Source of the DNA: Phoenix dactylifera
Taxonomy: Eukaryota; Streptophyta; Magnoliopsida; Arecales; Arecaceae
NCBI RefSeq assembly: GCF_009389715.1
Contig: NC_052407.1
Span: forward strand, 8,776,475 to 8,840,474
Length of the DNA: 64,000 nt
Direction: 5' to 3'
Shown here: in pieces, positions 52,936 through 60,568 of the stretch
How positions within the stretch are numbered: position 1 is the stretch's first letter
Layout: each line of letters begins with the position of its first letter
Translations under genes and position numbers: made by a program
The notes under the pieces: model-generated
What the model was told of the DNA's origin: nothing
The model's database searches: none
The model's input: the letters and a program-made list of their open reading frames with translations, nothing else

Positions 52936-53697
52936 GCGGCTGTTGGTATCCTAGGAACAATCTACTAAGAGGCTTGACTTAGGGTTTTCGAGGATGGCAG
53001 ATCTAAGAATATGCCTTGTAATTGCATGTTGTTTCATTTGTTACCCTTCATTTTAACCTGATCATGTTAATCAGTGTTGCACTCTGACTGAAGTATGCAA
53101 AATGCTTGAGAACTCCATGTTTAAGGAAGAAAGTGTATATAAGATTATTCTTCAAGCTGGACTCATGCTCTGGATATTTATCTTTAACATGAGTAGTACT
53201 GATGATTGGTTGGCTTTTGATAGGCTTCCGGCCGGCCTTTTGCTGTTTATAAAAGTTTGTCAATTAGTGAGAGTAAATGGCATGGACTGATAGGAGATCT
53301 AGTATATTTATATCTGTACATTTTGATTGCGTTTCACGAAATATGTGGATGGCTTGAATACATACAGATCTCATGGTTGCGTCTCATGTTTTTCTCTTTG
53401 AAAAACACACACAATTTATACTGTCTTTCTGTGCTGCATATGGGATTTTACTTCTCAATTAATCTGTAAATTTTACCGGCCGTGGCTATCCGTGACTGGC
53501 TGCGCCAAGCGGACGCTATATATTGCTTAATGCTTTTTCTTTTCCCTTTTATTTGAATTTTGTGATGCTGCTTGATCTTCTGCTTTACAAATTTTTATTA
53601 TTTACATTTTTGCTGTCTTTATTATTTGCTTTGGAGACTTTTAGACACTAGACTCAAGACAGTTTTTAAGAAACATAGCAAGTTACTGCTACGTAGT
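52936..53697. other. 3' region of the LisH-WD40 gene
   Basis: Probable 3' UTR followed by AT-rich spacer. Short frames at 53102 and 53257 are not recognisable. The gypsy-type LTR starts at 53698. Confidence 0.4.
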
Positions 53698-55138
53698 TGT
53701 GAGAATTGGCCCAATTGGGCCATTTCAGATTGGTGCCAGCATTGCCCACGGACTTCAATCGAGATGTTCGAAATTTTTGGGATTGAAATTGAGGAGGATG
53801 CATTTTTACTTTGCCGGATTTCCATGCTGTTGGGATAAGATTGCCTGCAGTTGTATTCGGTGGGGATTTGTCGGGCTGGTGTAAACGGCCGGCGGTCGTT
53901 GGAGCTTATTGTCTCTTCCAAAAGTCTTCTATAAATACTCGAGTCCTTTTGGTTTGATTCACCACAAGCTCTTCTCCCTCCTCTTTCTTCTTCTCTGATA
54001 GCCACCGCACCATCTCAGCCGGGCACCGCTGCCAAAACTTTTTCCGCGTCTCTCTAATTTCTTCTAAAGCCCATTTCTCTATTTTTTTTCTTATTTCAAG
54101 ATCCACTTTTTTCGTTAGAAGCCGCTGCCGTCGTGAAGTCCACTGCCACTGCAACTCCAGTGAGCTTCCTTCCTACTCCTTTTCCATTTTTCTTCCCAAA
54201 CTAAGTCTTGTTCCTTTGTTCCAAGCCAAACTGAAGATGTCCTTGCCTTCTTCCTCTATTGCCGATGTCGTCGGCTAGCCATCGACCCCTTGCTAGCCAT
54301 CGAATCTTCTTCCATCTCTTCTTTTCATTCTCTTTCCTCTCATCCTTCTCTCCATTCTATTTTCTTCATCCTCCTCTCATTCTTTATTTCTATTCACTTT
54401 ACTTATTTATTTACTTATGAATTAGTTTCTCAAATCCTCTTTTCTCTCTCCCTTGATGCATGGGTCATTTATGTTGATTGATTTAAGTTGGCCCATGCCA
54501 TTGACAACCAAACCTAGACCCTTGATTGAATCCGGATTGAGATTCTCTCTCTTCTCCCTCATTCTCTCTCTAGGTAGGCTCAGGGATCCTAGTGTAAGTC
54601 TTGCTTTTCTATTGGTCGGATCCAAGTTGCCCCGTATGGAGGCCCTGAATCGCTCCGGTACTCAGGCGGTAGACCAGTTCATTACTTTATTCTCCTATCG
54701 GATCTTTTTAAAATTTGACTACTATTGATCTTCATTGTGTTACGTAAATCATATCCGAACCTGATCAATTGAGTTCATCTTGATCGGATCGACCCGGGCA
54801 GTCCAGCACTATCACTTGACCAATCTGATTTAGGGGTATTAAGCTGTATTCCCAATAATATTTTTAATTTTTTGACTTCACTTGGCTTCTAAGGTGATGA
54901 TGAAATTAATTGGATTTTAATGATATTAAAATAGGTGAACCTGACTCGCTTACCTGAAGTAGAATTTTAAAGCAAAAAGAGGTAAATAACCTAATGCTTC
55001 CATGTGTGTTTTCCGAATTTTGGTAAAATGATAATTAGTTTATTATATATGATTATAATACCTATTTTATACTTGGTCAAATGGGTTGAGCATGTTATTA
55101 TTACAATAGTAAATCTTTTTAAATATATTATGTACTAA

Positions 55139-55386
55139 TGTTATTCTTAGAATTATTATAGGACCATTGAGCCAAACATAGTTGGCCTCCATAAAGGCTG
55201 ATTGTGCCAAACTTAGTCGGCCTTACCAAACTTTACTTTTTGATTGATTTATGATTGATTGTGTCAAACTTAGTTGATCTTACCAAATTTCATCAACCTC
55301 CTAGTACTATATAAAGGCTGCCTTTATACATTGTAATTGACGGACAGAAATTCAATTCTTTTCTCCCATTCTTTCTTTTCAATGCA
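55139..55386 (+). repeat. 5' LTR of the gene-capturing element
   Basis: 248 bp, TG...CA ends. It contains an internal duplication of a TGTGCCAAACTTAGT-type phrase (about 60 bp) that the 3' LTR lacks. A TATATAAAGG box lies near 55310. Confidence 0.75.
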
Positions 55387-55955
55387 GTATCAGAGTCACC
55401 GATCACGTAATTTGTTGTCATCATTTCTTTCGCTTTAGCTGTGGTCGTCGTCATCATCATTTACAGATCCTCTATTTCTTCTGTCTCGTTTGGAGGATAG
55501 CCGAGGCTCTGTCCCCGGCAACTTCTAAAGCTCCCATCTTCAAATCTAAGAAAAATTTAGTTTTTCTTTTTCTTATTTTTTGAGATGCGTAGGCGCTGTA
55601 GCGGCCTTTCTAGCTTCAGGATTGTCACCTCCCAATTCCTCCTAATCTTGTCCTCCACCTCCGAGTACAACCGCCCAAGCCTCTCTAAGTTGCCTGACAA
55701 CAAAGCCGAGAGAGGCGACCTGCGCGCCAAGACGCGCTTCCGTGCAAGCGCTTGACCCGGCACGCTCATGTCAAATCTGACGCCTCCCGAATCCCGACCC
55801 ACCCCGCTTCTCCGTAAGACGGTAACTACCTCTTGACCTCATCTTCTTCCCCTCTTCCCCTCCCCCCAAAAGAAAAAAAAACCCTTCTTATCGTCTTTCG
55901 ACTAGCTTTTTCTAAGGCTCCGGCCAGATTTTTTCTAGGGTTTCGCCGCGAGTGC
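55387..55955 (+). other. Leader region of the gene-capturing element
   Basis: Primer site, then about 550 bp with no recognised domain. A minus-strand frame (55802-55557) contains RLYSEVEDKIRRNWEVTILK, which I cannot assign; it may be a further captured piece. The last 100 bp resemble a plant 5' UTR (TTTCTAGGGTTTCG). Confidence 0.4.
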
Positions 55956-56330
55956 ATGGCAGTGAGCCTTCTGCAGTTTCATGAGGTGTCTGCCCTCTGC
56001 ATTGGGAAGCCGACGATGAAGTCTCTGCCGCCGTCCGCCACCATTAGAGAGGCCCTCCTCACCCTTAAGAGAGGTGGAGAGACTTTTGTTAGCATGTGGG
56101 TCGCTGATCGGGCGTCGCCGGAGAAGAAGGTGTGCGTCGGCAAAGTTTGCATGGTGGATGATGTCCTCTGGTGCCTCTGCTCCAAGGAGAACATCTCTTC
56201 CCTCGGGGCCGCACTCGCCATCCGCCCCCACGATCCCGCCCTCGTTGCGCTTCCCCTCATCAGCTGCGCCCTCGCCGACCAGACCTCCATCGCCGTCGTC
56301 CCCGACGACGGCAAGCTCATAGGCGAGATC
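55956..56330 (+). pseudogene. Captured fragment of a CBSX5-like CBS-domain gene
   Basis: From ATG 55956 the frame begins MAVSLLQFHEVSALCIGKP, as plant CBSX5 proteins do, and continues about 95 residues. It then jumps to a later part of that protein (ALPLISCALADQTSIAVV, then DDGKLIGEISP), so an internal stretch of the parent is missing. CBSX5 proteins are small cystathionine-beta-synthase-domain regulators; this copy cannot be functional alone. The frame runs on without a break into the proteasome fragment through a shared Ser-Pro. Confidence 0.8.
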
Positions 56331-56570
56331 TCCCCCGATGGCCACCTGTTCTAGGTGGAGTATGCCCTCGAGGCCGTCCTCAAGGGCAACGCCGCCGTCG
56401 GCGTCAGTGACACCGACACCATCGTCCTCGGCGTTGAGAAGAAGGCCACCTCAAGCTTCAGGACTCCAAATCGGGGAGGAAGATCGTGAGCCTGGACAAC
56501 CACATCGCGCTGGCGTGCGCGGGGCTGAAGGCCGACGCGCGGATCCTTAGCAACTTGGCCCGCGTCAAAT
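56331..56570 (+). pseudogene. Captured fragment of proteasome subunit alpha type-7
   Basis: Starts SPDGHLF, the conserved N-terminal motif of 20S alpha subunits. A TAG (56352-56354) then stands where the parent has CAG for Gln, followed by VEYALEAVLKGNAAVGV, TDTIVLGVEKK and, after a frameshift near 56450, KIVSLDNHIALACAGLKADAR. The order and wording are those of plant alpha-7 (PAD1/PAD2). It covers roughly residues 10-90 of the parent and breaks off at LARV. The 5' junction lies in frame with the CBSX5-like piece. Confidence 0.88.
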
Positions 56571-56782
56571 TCCAGAATCTCATGGCCGTCAGCCTCGACT
56601 ACTATGAGATCCTCATGTCCTGCTCTCGTAGCAGCACCAGCGGCGAGATGAGTTCCGAGGAAAGGGCCCAGCCGCTCAGGCCGGCATCTCCCCAGGCCTC
56701 ATCCGTATGTCCATGGGCTATAGTGGCACGTTGGAGCAACAATGGGGCCAGTTCGAGAGGGGCCCTCGCACTCACGCAGTAG
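56571..56782 (+). pseudogene. Captured C-terminal fragment of methionine gamma-lyase
   Basis: Directly after the proteasome piece the frame reads LMAVSLDYYEILMSCSRSS and TSGEMSSEER. After a frameshift near 56670 it continues AGISPGLIRMSMGYSGTLEQ and QWGQFER. This is the C-terminal end of plant methionine gamma-lyase, a PLP enzyme that cleaves methionine to methanethiol. After one extra G, ALALTQ and a TAG (56780-56782) probably represent the parent's own stop codon. Catalytic regions are absent. Homology here is clear, though the exact junction with the proteasome piece is uncertain by about 10 bp. Confidence 0.8.
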
Positions 56783-56852
56783 CACGCATCGCAGGATGCT
56801 ACCATGCATCTACTACAAGGTCCAAGAGAGGTCTGGTGCCTCAATCAGAGAG

Positions 56853-57170
56853 AGTTAAGCTTCCTGAGCATCCGCTTCCGGTGCTTATATTTCTCCAGAG
56901 ATGAGAGAGTTAAGCTCCTCGAGCACCCGCTTTCGGTGCTTCTGTTTCTCTGGAGATTAGAGCTTCTCGAGCACCTACTTTCGGTGCTTTTATTCCTCTG
57001 GAGATGAAGGAGTTAAGCTTCCTAAGCACCCGCTTCCGATGTTGCTGTTCCTCCAGAGATAAGGAATTTAAGCTCCTCAAGCATCCGCTTCTGGTGCTCC
57101 TATTCCTCCGAAGATGAGGGAGTTAAGCTCCCTGAGCACCCGCTTCTGGTGCTCTTGTTCCTCTATGGAG
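56853..57170. repeat. 55-bp minisatellite downstream of the captured genes
   Basis: Five to six tandem units of about 55 bp sharing GAGTTAAGCTCC, GAGCACCCGCTT and CGGTGCTT, each ending in a CTCTGGAGAT-like phrase. It lies between the captured methionine gamma-lyase end and the copia tail. Confidence 0.88.
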
Positions 57171-57599
57171 GCAGAGGCGACGCACGCCACACTGTACTGT
57201 CAGAAGCTTAGCGAATGTAAACTTGACAAGTGCAGTTCTATTCTCGATCACGCAGGAGCAGCGCGCCACACCGTATCGTCAGAAGCTTGGTAAAGGTAAA
57301 CTTGGCAAGTACGATCTCGCTCTCGATCATGAAGGCATACATCTATATGGCGCAGCCCCAGTCCTCAATCTCCGATTTTATTTGCTGCCTCCAGCTCCTT
57401 CATCATCTAGTTTGAGGTCTCTTGCTCTTCTTTTATGGTGCTTTCGTCTACGAGCATCGTTGAGCTTCAATTGTCTTCTCTCTAAGATCTATCCTCGCTA
57501 CGGATGTTTTCACCAAAGTTTATCCTTCTGGCATCTTCAGATCTCTTCTTTCCAAACTCAAGTTGGTGTATACTTTACCACCTTGAGTTTGAGGGGACA
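57171..57599 (+). mobile_element. Residual copia 3' sequence
   Basis: Two imperfect copies of a unit around CAGAAGCTT..GTAAACTTG.CAAGT lie at 57200-57330. A frame near 57495 reads DVFTKVYPSGIFRSLLSKL, the typical end of copia RNase H, leading to the polypurine tract. It shows the element's origin. Confidence 0.6.
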
Positions 57600-57784
57600 C
57601 GTTAGAATTATTGTAGGACCATTGATTGTGCCAAACATAGTCGACCTCAATAAAGGCTGATTGTGCCAAACTTAGTCGACCTTACCAAACTACATCAACC
57701 TCCTAGTACTAGATAAAGAATGCTCCTGTACATTGTAATTGATAGGCAGAAATACAAATCTTCTCTCATTCTTCTTTTTTAACA
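57600..57784 (+). repeat. 3' LTR of the gene-capturing element
   Basis: 185 bp, beginning CGTTAGAATTATTG (TG lost) and ending TTTTTTAACA. It aligns with the 5' LTR apart from the internal duplication there. Confidence 0.75.
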
Positions 57785-58089
57785 GTTACCAAATTTGAGA
57801 AACATGAATAAATAAATTATGAAATCTGTTTCATATGTATGTATTTTCAGTACGGTTATACTTTGGCTCCGCCAATGGAGATTATTTTTTGACTCTATCA
57901 ACTTGTAATTTAAGAAACTAGTTTCGACACCGAACCACCGGTGATTAGAATAGTGGTATCTGATACTTTGTGCATTCTGTATCTGACTCATGCCATTGGG
58001 TTACGTGGCCATAACCTTGCATGCTTGTATGGTCCGTCATAGAAGTATGCAGCGTCTATTGCGTTTTAGGTACAGGGCATGACAATAGT

Positions 58090-58651
58090 CGTCGATGTTA
58101 ATATCGAGGATGATAGGAGAGAAAAGCAGACTCTCATCGATTAATACCGAGGAATTTTTGTAAATAAAAAAATATATTAGCTATTGGAATGGGTTTGTAT
58201 CTTTGGCGCGAAAGAAGGGTTCGCCTTTCTTCACACGAATCCACATTTGGATCACCCACCACACAGCTCTCAAAGTGCTTGTGCTCACCATCTATCCATC
58301 TACACATATCTCAAAGTTAATAGTGGTCGATCCGATGGTCGATTTGCGCAGAAGAGGGCAAATCGTTGATTTGCGTTACTGCGTATCACAAATCTTGTAG
58401 CATCTGTTGCGTCAATATATAAAAACCTTTTGCAGCTTCCAAACGAGCGTTTAGCCTTGAGGAGCGGGAGTAGTGTCATCTTTCAATAGATTTTTCTGAT
58501 AATGTCCAAGGATTGTGGCTCCGCACCCTCCTCACTAATGCCAAAAAGTAATTAATATTTCTCTCACTCCGCAGTCCCATGCTTCAACGATGCCCATGGT
58601 TATTTCTGGATAAGGAGGTGACCAGAACTTCTGCACTGGCCTCCCCCAACC
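58090..58651 (+). promoter_or_regulatory. Promoter region of the PPR gene
   Basis: A TATATAAAAA box lies at 58416-58425, about 230 bp before the ATG. No other gene is seen between the gypsy LTR end and this box. Confidence 0.55.
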
Positions 58652-60568
58652 ATGTCCTCCGCCACCGCCGCCGCCGCCGCGGCCACCTCGACCGCCTCCG
58701 CCGCCGCCACTCACTTCTCTCCGCCACCTCCGCCCTTCCCCGCACCCCATCCCCTCCTCCCTCCCGAGCACGCCGCCTCCCTGATCGACCGGTGCCGAAC
58801 CGTCCGCCGCCTCCTCGAGATTCACGCCGCCGTCCTCCGCGCCGGCCACCACCACCACCCGATCGTCAACTTCAAGCTTCAGCGCTCCTACTCCTCCCTC
58901 GGCCTCCTCGACCGCCACCTCGCCCTCCTCCGCCTCACTCCCGACCCCAACGTCTTCTTCTGGACCGCCGCCATCCACGCCCACGCTCTCCACGGCCTCC
59001 ACCAGGCTGCCCTCCTCCTCCTCTCCCAGATGCTCTCCGCTGCCGTCGTCCCCAATGCCTTCACCCTCTCCTCCGCCCTCATATCCTGCCCCCTCCCCCA
59101 AGGCCGCGCCCTCCACGCCCACTCCCTCAAGCTCTCCCTCACCGCCGACCCCTACGTTGCCACCGCCCTCCTCGACATGTACGCCCGCGCCAGCGACGTC
59201 GCCTCTGCCCGCCGCCTCTTCGAAGACATGCCCGAGCGGCGGCTCGTCTCTTCCACAGCTATGATGACTTGCTATGCTAAGCTTGGCGACTTGGTGCAGG
59301 CCCGCCGGTTGTTCGACGAAATGGACCACAGGGACTGCGTCTGCTGGAACACTATGATCGATGGGTACACCCAGCACGGCCGCCCCAACGAGTCTCTGGC
59401 CCTCTTTAGGCGGATGCTAAGGTCCTCCGCTAGGCCCAATGAAGTCACGGTGATCTCCGTGCTTTCTGCTGTCGCCCAGCTGGGCTCGCTGGCTTCAGGC
59501 AAATGGGTGCATTCTTACATAAAGAACATCAACAATCGAATCGAGTTCAATGCCAAAGTTGGGACCGCGTTGATCGACATGTATTGCAAATGTGGGAGCT
59601 TGGAGGATGCTTGCTTGGTGTTCGACAGCATCAAAGACAAGGATGTCGTTGCTTGGAATTCGATGATCGGCGGTTACGCAATGCATGGCAACAGCAAGGA
59701 ATCCCTCAAGCTCTTCTCCAAATTACGCGCTGAAGGTTTTCAACCGACTGACATCACCTTCATTGCAGTCTTGAATGCTTGTAGCCATTCAGGTCTGGTG
59801 AGTGAAGGAAGGGAGCTCTTCCACATGATGGAAAATGATTACAGAATTGAGCCTAAAGTTGAGCATTATGGATGCATGGTTGATCTCCTCGGGCGTGCAG
59901 GGTTGGTAGATGAGGCATATGAGCTTGTTCGGAGCCTGAGATTTAAGCCGGACACAGTAATGTGGGGTTCATTGCTTGCAGCTTGTAGACTCCACAAAAA
60001 CATGGCTTTGGGAGAGAAGATTGCGAATTATTTGGTCAGCAATGGCCTTGCAAACTCTGGGACTTACGTTCTTCTGTCCAATATCTATGCAGCAGTGGGG
60101 AATTGGGAGGAGGTGGGTAGAGTGAGGACCTTGATGAAGGGGAGTGGGGTTCAAAAGGAGCCTGGTTGTAGCTCCATTGAAGTCGACAATAAGGTGTATG
60201 AGTTTGTTGTGGGGGACTTGAGTCATGCCAAGAGCCAAGAGATATATGCAATGCTGGAGGAGTTGAATGGCTTGCTCAAAGCTCATGGATATGTTCCCCA
60301 GGTAGAGCTGGTGTTGCATGATTTAGAGGAGCCGGAGAAAGAGCGAGCTCTCAGGGTTCACAGCGAGAAATTAGCTATAGCTTTTGGGCTGATCAGCACT
60401 AAACCAGGGACGGCGATTAAGATTGTCAAGAACCTTCGAGTTTGCACTGATTGTCATACTGTTACGAAACTGATCTCTAAGATAAGTGGGAGGAAGATTA
60501 TTGTAAGGGATAGGAATAGATTCCACCATTTTGTTGATGGCTTATGCTCTTGTGGGGATTATTGGTGA
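58652..60568 (+). CDS. ELI1: PLS-DYW pentatricopeptide repeat protein, ELI1-like
   Basis: Organellar C-to-U RNA editing factor. It is intronless and 638 residues long, close to Arabidopsis ELI1 (about 630), which is needed for editing of the chloroplast ndhB transcript. The Ala/Ser/Pro-rich N terminus (1-35) fits a plastid transit peptide. P, L and S repeats run from about 40 to 450 (for example YAKLGDLVQARRLFDEM, DMYCKCGSLEDACLVF, YGCMVDLLGRAG). E motifs follow, then a C-terminal DYW deaminase with HSEKLAIAFG (zinc ligand and catalytic Glu, about 570), the CTDCH zinc motif (about 598) and the final DYW. The first 700 bp are extremely GC-rich, giving long spurious frames on both strands. The frame is intact; orthology to ELI1 is likely from residue-level similarity along the whole length. 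Confidence 0.94.
   Translation: MSSATAAAAAATSTASAAATHFSPPPPPFPAPHPLLPPEHAASLIDRCRTVRRLLEIHAAVLRAGHHHHPIVNFKLQRSYSSLGLLDRHLALLRLTPDPNVFFWTAAIHAHALHGLHQAALLLLSQMLSAAVVPNAFTLSSALISCPLPQGRALHAHSLKLSLTADPYVATALLDMYARASDVASARRLFEDMPERRLVSSTAMMTCYAKLGDLVQARRLFDEMDHRDCVCWNTMIDGYTQHGRPNESLALFRRMLRSSARPNEVTVISVLSAVAQLGSLASGKWVHSYIKNINNRIEFNAKVGTALIDMYCKCGSLEDACLVFDSIKDKDVVAWNSMIGGYAMHGNSKESLKLFSKLRAEGFQPTDITFIAVLNACSHSGLVSEGRELFHMMENDYRIEPKVEHYGCMVDLLGRAGLVDEAYELVRSLRFKPDTVMWGSLLAACRLHKNMALGEKIANYLVSNGLANSGTYVLLSNIYAAVGNWEEVGRVRTLMKGSGVQKEPGCSSIEVDNKVYEFVVGDLSHAKSQEIYAMLEELNGLLKAHGYVPQVELVLHDLEEPEKERALRVHSEKLAIAFGLISTKPGTAIKIVKNLRVCTDCHTVTKLISKISGRKIIVRDRNRFHHFVDGLCSCGDYW

Follow-up and report, generated by a model that had tools for sequence, protein, structure and literature searches.

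What does the LTR retrotransposon at this locus of date palm (Phoenix dactylifera) carry, how was its cargo assembled, and is it one of a kind? The window, that is, the whole stretch of 64,000 nucleotides analyzed here (C16:8776475-8840474), had been read from its letters as containing such an element with a primer site and a polypurine tract, and this was borne out. The element occupies 55145-57784 (2,640 bp, plus strand, as are all its parts unless stated otherwise). In an alignment of its 5′ LTR (242 bp; 55145-55386) with its 3′ LTR (185 bp; 57600-57784), 181 sites were compared, and they differ by 17 transitions and 7 transversions (K2P 0.149); the extra length of the former is mainly one internal stretch. 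The termini are TC...CA and CG...CA, and many of the related copies in the genome, hereafter siblings, start with TG. The primer binding site (GTATCAGAGTC; 55387-55397), whose form in siblings (TGGTATCAGAGC) we take to be of the initiator-Met tRNA type, directly follows the 5′ LTR, and the polypurine tract (TTGAGTTTGAGGGGACA; 57583-57599) directly precedes the 3′ LTR. A 5-bp target site duplication, GTTAT (55140-55144) and GTTAC (57785-57789), flanks the element, with four of five letters alike. When the genome was searched with a 28-base pattern comprising the tract and the adjoining LTR, 25 occurrences with at most three mismatches were found versus none for the reversed control; some of the 25 resemble another family (GTTAGCATAAT). 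That the LTRs are chance repeats was therefore rejected, given the primer site, the polypurine tract, the target duplication, and dozens of relatives. At plant substitution rates between 1.3e-8 and 2.6e-9 per site and year, the insertion would date back, very roughly, ∼6 to 28 million years. The window copy is old, decayed, and broken.

The LTRs enclose a leader (55398-55615), alike in some other copies (L016, L021, and L023) up to ∼55581, then the cargo, and then a repeat-rich 3′ part. The latter consists of ∼55-bp tandem repeats (56852-57173), also present in many siblings, 79-bp repeats (57175-57332), of which the window has two copies and some siblings have more, and a conserved 3′ tail (57380-57582), recognized by alignment and resembling, by eye, the end of a Copia RNase H (ADVFTKA...SKLKLVSTLPP). 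The copy number of both repeats differs among the window and the siblings, and the repeats might help strand transfer or packaging. Approximately 870 bp downstream of the element, on the same strand, lies an open intronless frame of 638 aa (58652-60568), which by eye resembles a pentatricopeptide protein with a DYW end.

The cargo had been described as pieces of a CBSX5-like gene, proteasome alpha-7, and methionine gamma-lyase, arranged head to tail and in sense. Each of the three was traced to a parent gene on a contig of its own, with DNA matches between 84 and 95%. The CBSX5-like piece (55826-56336) derives from a gene on C17, which is presumably CBSX5 (the analysis itself showed CBS domains, 1.4e-11); it matches at 88% over 55826-56217 and at 95% over 56207-56336, and spans from upstream of the parental start codon through exon 1, from where an imperfect 11-base repeat near 56207-56217 leads into exon 2. 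The proteasome piece (56329-56576) comprises two exons of a gene on C18 (Pfam Proteasome, 3.8e-42), matched at 91% (56329-56468) and 90% (56465-56576). The lyase piece (56572-56834) corresponds to the 3′ end of a gene on C2 (Cys_Met_Meta_PP, 9.1e-22), and also to the sibling copy on C15; its match to the C2 parent (84%) starts at 56579, or at 56572 if a 15-base gap is allowed, and stops just beyond the parental stop codon, at 56834. The trio therefore stands as described, but not the number of pieces: the cargo consists of five abutting pieces, one of them antisense. Upstream of CBSX5 lie 77 bases of ChlH, a magnesium-chelatase subunit (55616-55692, minus strand; C13:4557273-4557347, 88%), and a C5-derived stretch (55693-55826; C5:4523420-4523559, 86%). 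The ChlH parent on C13 was recognized by CobN-Mg_chel (1.7e-46) and by the structure of chloroplast ChlH (5ewu, 1.8e-51). Pfam matches of the reading frames in the window itself were weak and below the cut-off (CBS 0.001, Proteasome 0.00034); the identity of the pieces rests firmly on the DNA match to the parents. Because E-values of these matches range from ∼1e-17 to 1e-140 and an intron is exactly absent, the pieces are not chance matches. A transposed tandem of parent genes was rejected, as the trio's parents sit on three different contigs (C17, C18, and C2).

Whether the pieces arrived as RNA or as DNA can be read from introns and joins. Between the two captured exons, the proteasome gene on C18 has an 82-bp GT-AG intron, which the window copy and the sibling copy on C1 lack precisely; in a sibling on C888, the 585-bp GT-AG intron of a metacaspase gene on C31 is missing just as exactly. 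The CBSX5 intron is gone as well; because its loss sits inside a deletion, which differs between the window and C1 copies, it proves no splicing, and the proteasome piece is the only one with an exact splice in the window copy. The captured stretches of the lyase and of the arginine decarboxylase of another sibling contain no intron that could be scored for loss. In both the window copy and the C1 copy, CBSX5 and proteasome are joined at the same 8 identical bases (56329-56336 of the window), an overlap that was reached by 0.06% (0.0006) of random joins of the two parents (200,000 trials). At the proteasome/lyase join, 5 identical bases (0.7% of random joins, 0.007) result only if the lyase part is allowed its 15-base gap next to the join, and without it there is no clear overlap. 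Joins on short identities are predicted by template switching of reverse transcriptase. The exact absence of the intron together with the 8-base join fits the capture of spliced RNA by such switching, which would be the event behind the join. Patching at the DNA level, with genomic fragments entering the element by break repair or nested insertion and without RNA, would account equally well for the antisense piece of ChlH and the stretch from C5, whose junctions with one another and with CBSX5 show hardly any overlap; for the cargo as a whole, this is improbable in view of two exact splices, those of the proteasome and metacaspase pieces.

The sequence-only reading had also supposed that the trio may define a non-autonomous family that shuffles exons. 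When the 773-Mb genome was searched with the whole element (40 of 576 first-look candidates were scored), the full element length was found only in the window, and in the genome searches taken together no other copy had all three genes of the trio, so that the trio does not define the family. The family itself is supported by siblings with other cargo, by shared joins, and by the absence of reverse transcriptase from the frames scanned. The window and 38 further loci make up a set of 39 member loci, or 34 after merging five pairs that are duplicates including their flanks (L014/L015, L016/L017, L026/L051, L052/L053, and L055/L056). For example, L056, which has the 3′ tail, is 99.7% identical to L055 over 2,125 bases and is therefore no separate insertion. 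LTRs, leader, tandem repeats, and 3′ tail are the features that members have in common. The tail was present in the window and in all 37 loci of the main sibling set; in L062, it was not found in the 2.6 kb examined. Among 37 tail-bearing sequences, including the window, 21 matched the 5′ LTR over some length and 14 had a primer-like site; in the 16 without an LTR match, the upstream border of the element is putative.

Sibling frames were scanned for protein families (123 frames out of 187 with at least 60 residues and a GC content of at least 0.42, and 100 frames out of 203 others). Reverse transcriptase, integrase, and gag families were absent from these 223 frames, as was a pol gene order of the Copia type, and no autonomous helper was found among the elements examined. 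Judged by these sequences, the family would be one of non-autonomous LTR retrotransposons, and the primer site, the polypurine tract, and the tail as read by eye suggest that it probably derived from a Copia element.

A host-gene piece was recognized in 18 of the 39 member loci, the window included (15 of 34 once the duplicate pairs are merged); the remaining 21 loci yielded none at the thresholds used in the part of their frames that was scanned. At least two recognized genes are present in six of the 15 cargo loci: the window, L010, L016/L017, L041, L044, and L047, the last two with the same two genes. L010, the C1 copy, carries RACK1, CBSX5, and proteasome; L016/L017, to which the C888 copy belongs, carry DUF7138, arginine decarboxylase, and metacaspase; L041 carries histone H3 (4.7e-5) and FRIGIDA (3.3e-29), along with a stretch that resembles the OEP24-bearing sibling at 85%; L044 and L047 carry an ammonium transporter and GrpE. 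Single genes are carried by L062 (RACK1), L011, the C15 copy (methionine gamma-lyase), L026/L051 (metacaspase), L019 and L024 (SAM decarboxylase), L012 (bromodomain, 3.8e-6), L052/L053 (OEP24), L048 (ribosomal uL2), and L013 (EF-hand). No 5′ LTR was mapped in L010, L013, L026/L051, L041, L044, L048, and L052/L053; their cargo appears to lie within the element, judging by its position and, for L010 and L026/L051, also by joins or modules shared with loci bearing a 5′ LTR. Three Mlo frames and weak SCAB-ABD matches, all without an assigned locus, were kept out of these counts, and three L052 frames that were tried had no match to Mlo. A UDP-glucosyltransferase frame near L049 was not counted either, as its coordinates place it upstream of the 5′ LTR. 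A homologue search with one frame of the C1 copy found none.

Some further observations concern individual siblings. Some of the captured genes act in the metabolism of methionine, SAM, or polyamines (methionine gamma-lyase, arginine decarboxylase, and SAM decarboxylase; window, L011, L016, L019, and L024), perhaps only because such mRNAs are abundant; L024 also seems, by eye and without a Pfam match, to contain the start of an S-adenosylhomocysteinase. In L044 (3147-3589), the block of the ammonium transporter and that of GrpE have 9 bases in common, while in L047 the two are set apart by ∼1 kb with similarity to parts of L020 and L057. The loci L016/L017 and L026/L051 (C888, C107, and C414) have 3′ flanks in common at ∼95% or more, so that a segment with a metacaspase-bearing element inside it was either duplicated or entered the assembly repeatedly.

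Could the cargo have been retained because a fusion protein was useful to the host or to the element? The frame is retained across both joins of the trio in the window copy, and pairwise dN/dS of the proteasome part to its C18 parent was 0.32 (window) and 0.35 (C1), ratios that include the parent's own constraint and come from 77 and 140 codons. An OEP24 frame of a sibling (C7; L052:3459-3830) matches a listed date palm protein (P0002, outer envelope pore protein) at 100% identity, with 98% of the query covered. In the window copy, however, an open chimeric frame is absent, for the proteasome part contains a one-base gap and an in-frame stop (56352-56354), at a codon that still encodes the parental glutamine in the C1 copy, where the proteasome part has one stop and gaps of its own. 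Retention for a useful fusion is, in view of these lesions, very unlikely. Purifying selection on the cargo was rejected, since the ratios mix parent and element, the codons are few, and stops adjoin them. Another protein, P0105, was rejected as a sign of expression, as it corresponds to CBSX5 exon 1 without the join.

Several joins and modules occur in more than one sibling, in part with different neighbors. The RACK1-to-CBSX5 join is common to L010 and L062 (C1:1383k and C1:7958k), and the CBSX5-to-proteasome join to L010 and the window, with L010 extending further into the proteasome gene. The lyase module seems to begin at the same TTCCAGAA in the window and C15 copies, and in the latter it is joined to another neighbor. 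A 94-base module at the end of the L010 cargo is also present in L043, and one of 70 bases is common to L012, L016/L017, and L026/L051; the metacaspase module is found in C888/C107 and C414, and the OEP24-like stretch in C7/C741 and C1:26.27M. Such modules in different company fit recombination between the RNAs of siblings, which may have exchanged them. Single capture of a pre-existing chimeric host transcript or fused gene, which would account for the frame retained across both joins, is very unlikely: the three parents are located on C17, C18, and C2; in the C1 copy, RACK1 is fused to CBSX5 and the proteasome piece is longer; in the C15 copy, the lyase has another partner; and genome searches revealed no fused gene outside the family.

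The window element is thus very probably an old and decayed copy of a small non-autonomous LTR family, probably Copia-derived, that would have acquired its cargo by template switching onto co-packaged host mRNAs. The evidence for this origin comes from the anatomy, the parents, the intron loss, the shared joins, and the scanned frames, which contained no reverse transcriptase domain. Elements of this kind would keep LTRs, primer site, leader, 3′ repeats, tail, and polypurine tract and would borrow reverse transcriptase from an autonomous relative, putatively a Copia helper. Host mRNAs packaged with the element RNA would serve as templates, and the enzyme would switch from the 3′ part of the element to the mRNA of methionine gamma-lyase, from there to those of proteasome alpha-7 and CBSX5, and then, by way of the two short upstream pieces, to the leader of the element again. 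Most of these switches would take place where short stretches are identical, perhaps over several rounds, and switching between sibling RNAs would hand joined modules from copy to copy. More tentatively, and with somewhat less than even confidence, the family may be a continuing system of exon shuffling. In this view, the conserved leader and the repeat-rich 3′ module of a non-autonomous LTR lineage would tolerate or promote template switching again and again; many copies would then carry differing mosaics of host mRNA pieces, joined modules would pass between siblings by recombination, and new chimeric frames would be fed into the palm genome.

The single copy in the window is a fossil, and it is the family that is of interest. 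The element would preserve, as a record made by nature, how genes were fragmented and recombined by way of RNA, with at least one piece spliced. Because the parents are still in the genome and joins are shared by siblings, the order of template switches, the identity at each of them, and any bias among mRNAs become readable, and the family would make retrotransposon-driven exon shuffling countable. Element cargo also enters gene catalogues, as the sibling OEP24 piece listed as a date palm protein illustrates.

In the literature searched, which lay mostly outside subscription journals, no description of this date palm family was found. The sequence-only reading had named maize Bs1 as a precedent, aptly so: in this LTR retrotransposon, three unrelated host genes are represented by fragments that consist of exons only (PMC13317346; PMC4717578). 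Like Bs1, the date palm element is an LTR element with pieces of several unlinked genes and with introns absent, an exact splice being limited in the window to the proteasome piece; it differs in having five pieces, one of them antisense, in the genes captured, in siblings with different, partly shared sets, and in a broken chimeric frame. A second three-gene case is the soybean TRIM GmaRetroS15, described in PMC4717578 as small and non-autonomous, with gene fragments without introns and 5-bp duplications. The gene-bearing TRIMs reported there measure 1,172-1,449 bp and belong to one subfamily from Medicago and six from soybean; date palm TRIMs were also part of that survey (PMC4717578). In contrast to these TRIMs, the window element is 2,640 bp long and has tandem repeats and a pol-like tail. 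Its LTRs (185-242 bp) would fit the size limits of TRIMs, a class defined as very short and devoid of coding remnants; the pol-like character of the tail was read by eye. Pack-MULEs and Helitrons also capture host gene fragments, some of them in chimeric transcripts (PMC13317346). The date palm element shares the capture and differs in its LTRs, primer site, polypurine tract, and spliced cargo; within 53500-59500 of the window, there is no pair of inverted repeats of at least 30 bp, the terminal inverted repeats of a Pack-MULE or TIR element being absent. LTR elements with captured genes in maize B73, rice, and sorghum serve as a further comparison set (PMC3726574, PMC2774510, and PMC7264820). 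Among the 425 gene-bearing elements of the maize survey, none is reported, under its conditions, to contain pieces of more than one standard nuclear gene (PMC2774510), whereas the date palm family has six independent loci with at least two recognized genes. Multi-gene capture by LTR elements is seldom reported in these sources, namely for Bs1 and two TRIMs of the plant-wide survey (PMC13317346; PMC4717578). Capture of three genes by an LTR element is already known from Bs1 and GmaRetroS15; the window element is one mosaic in a date palm family of several, with joins shared among siblings.
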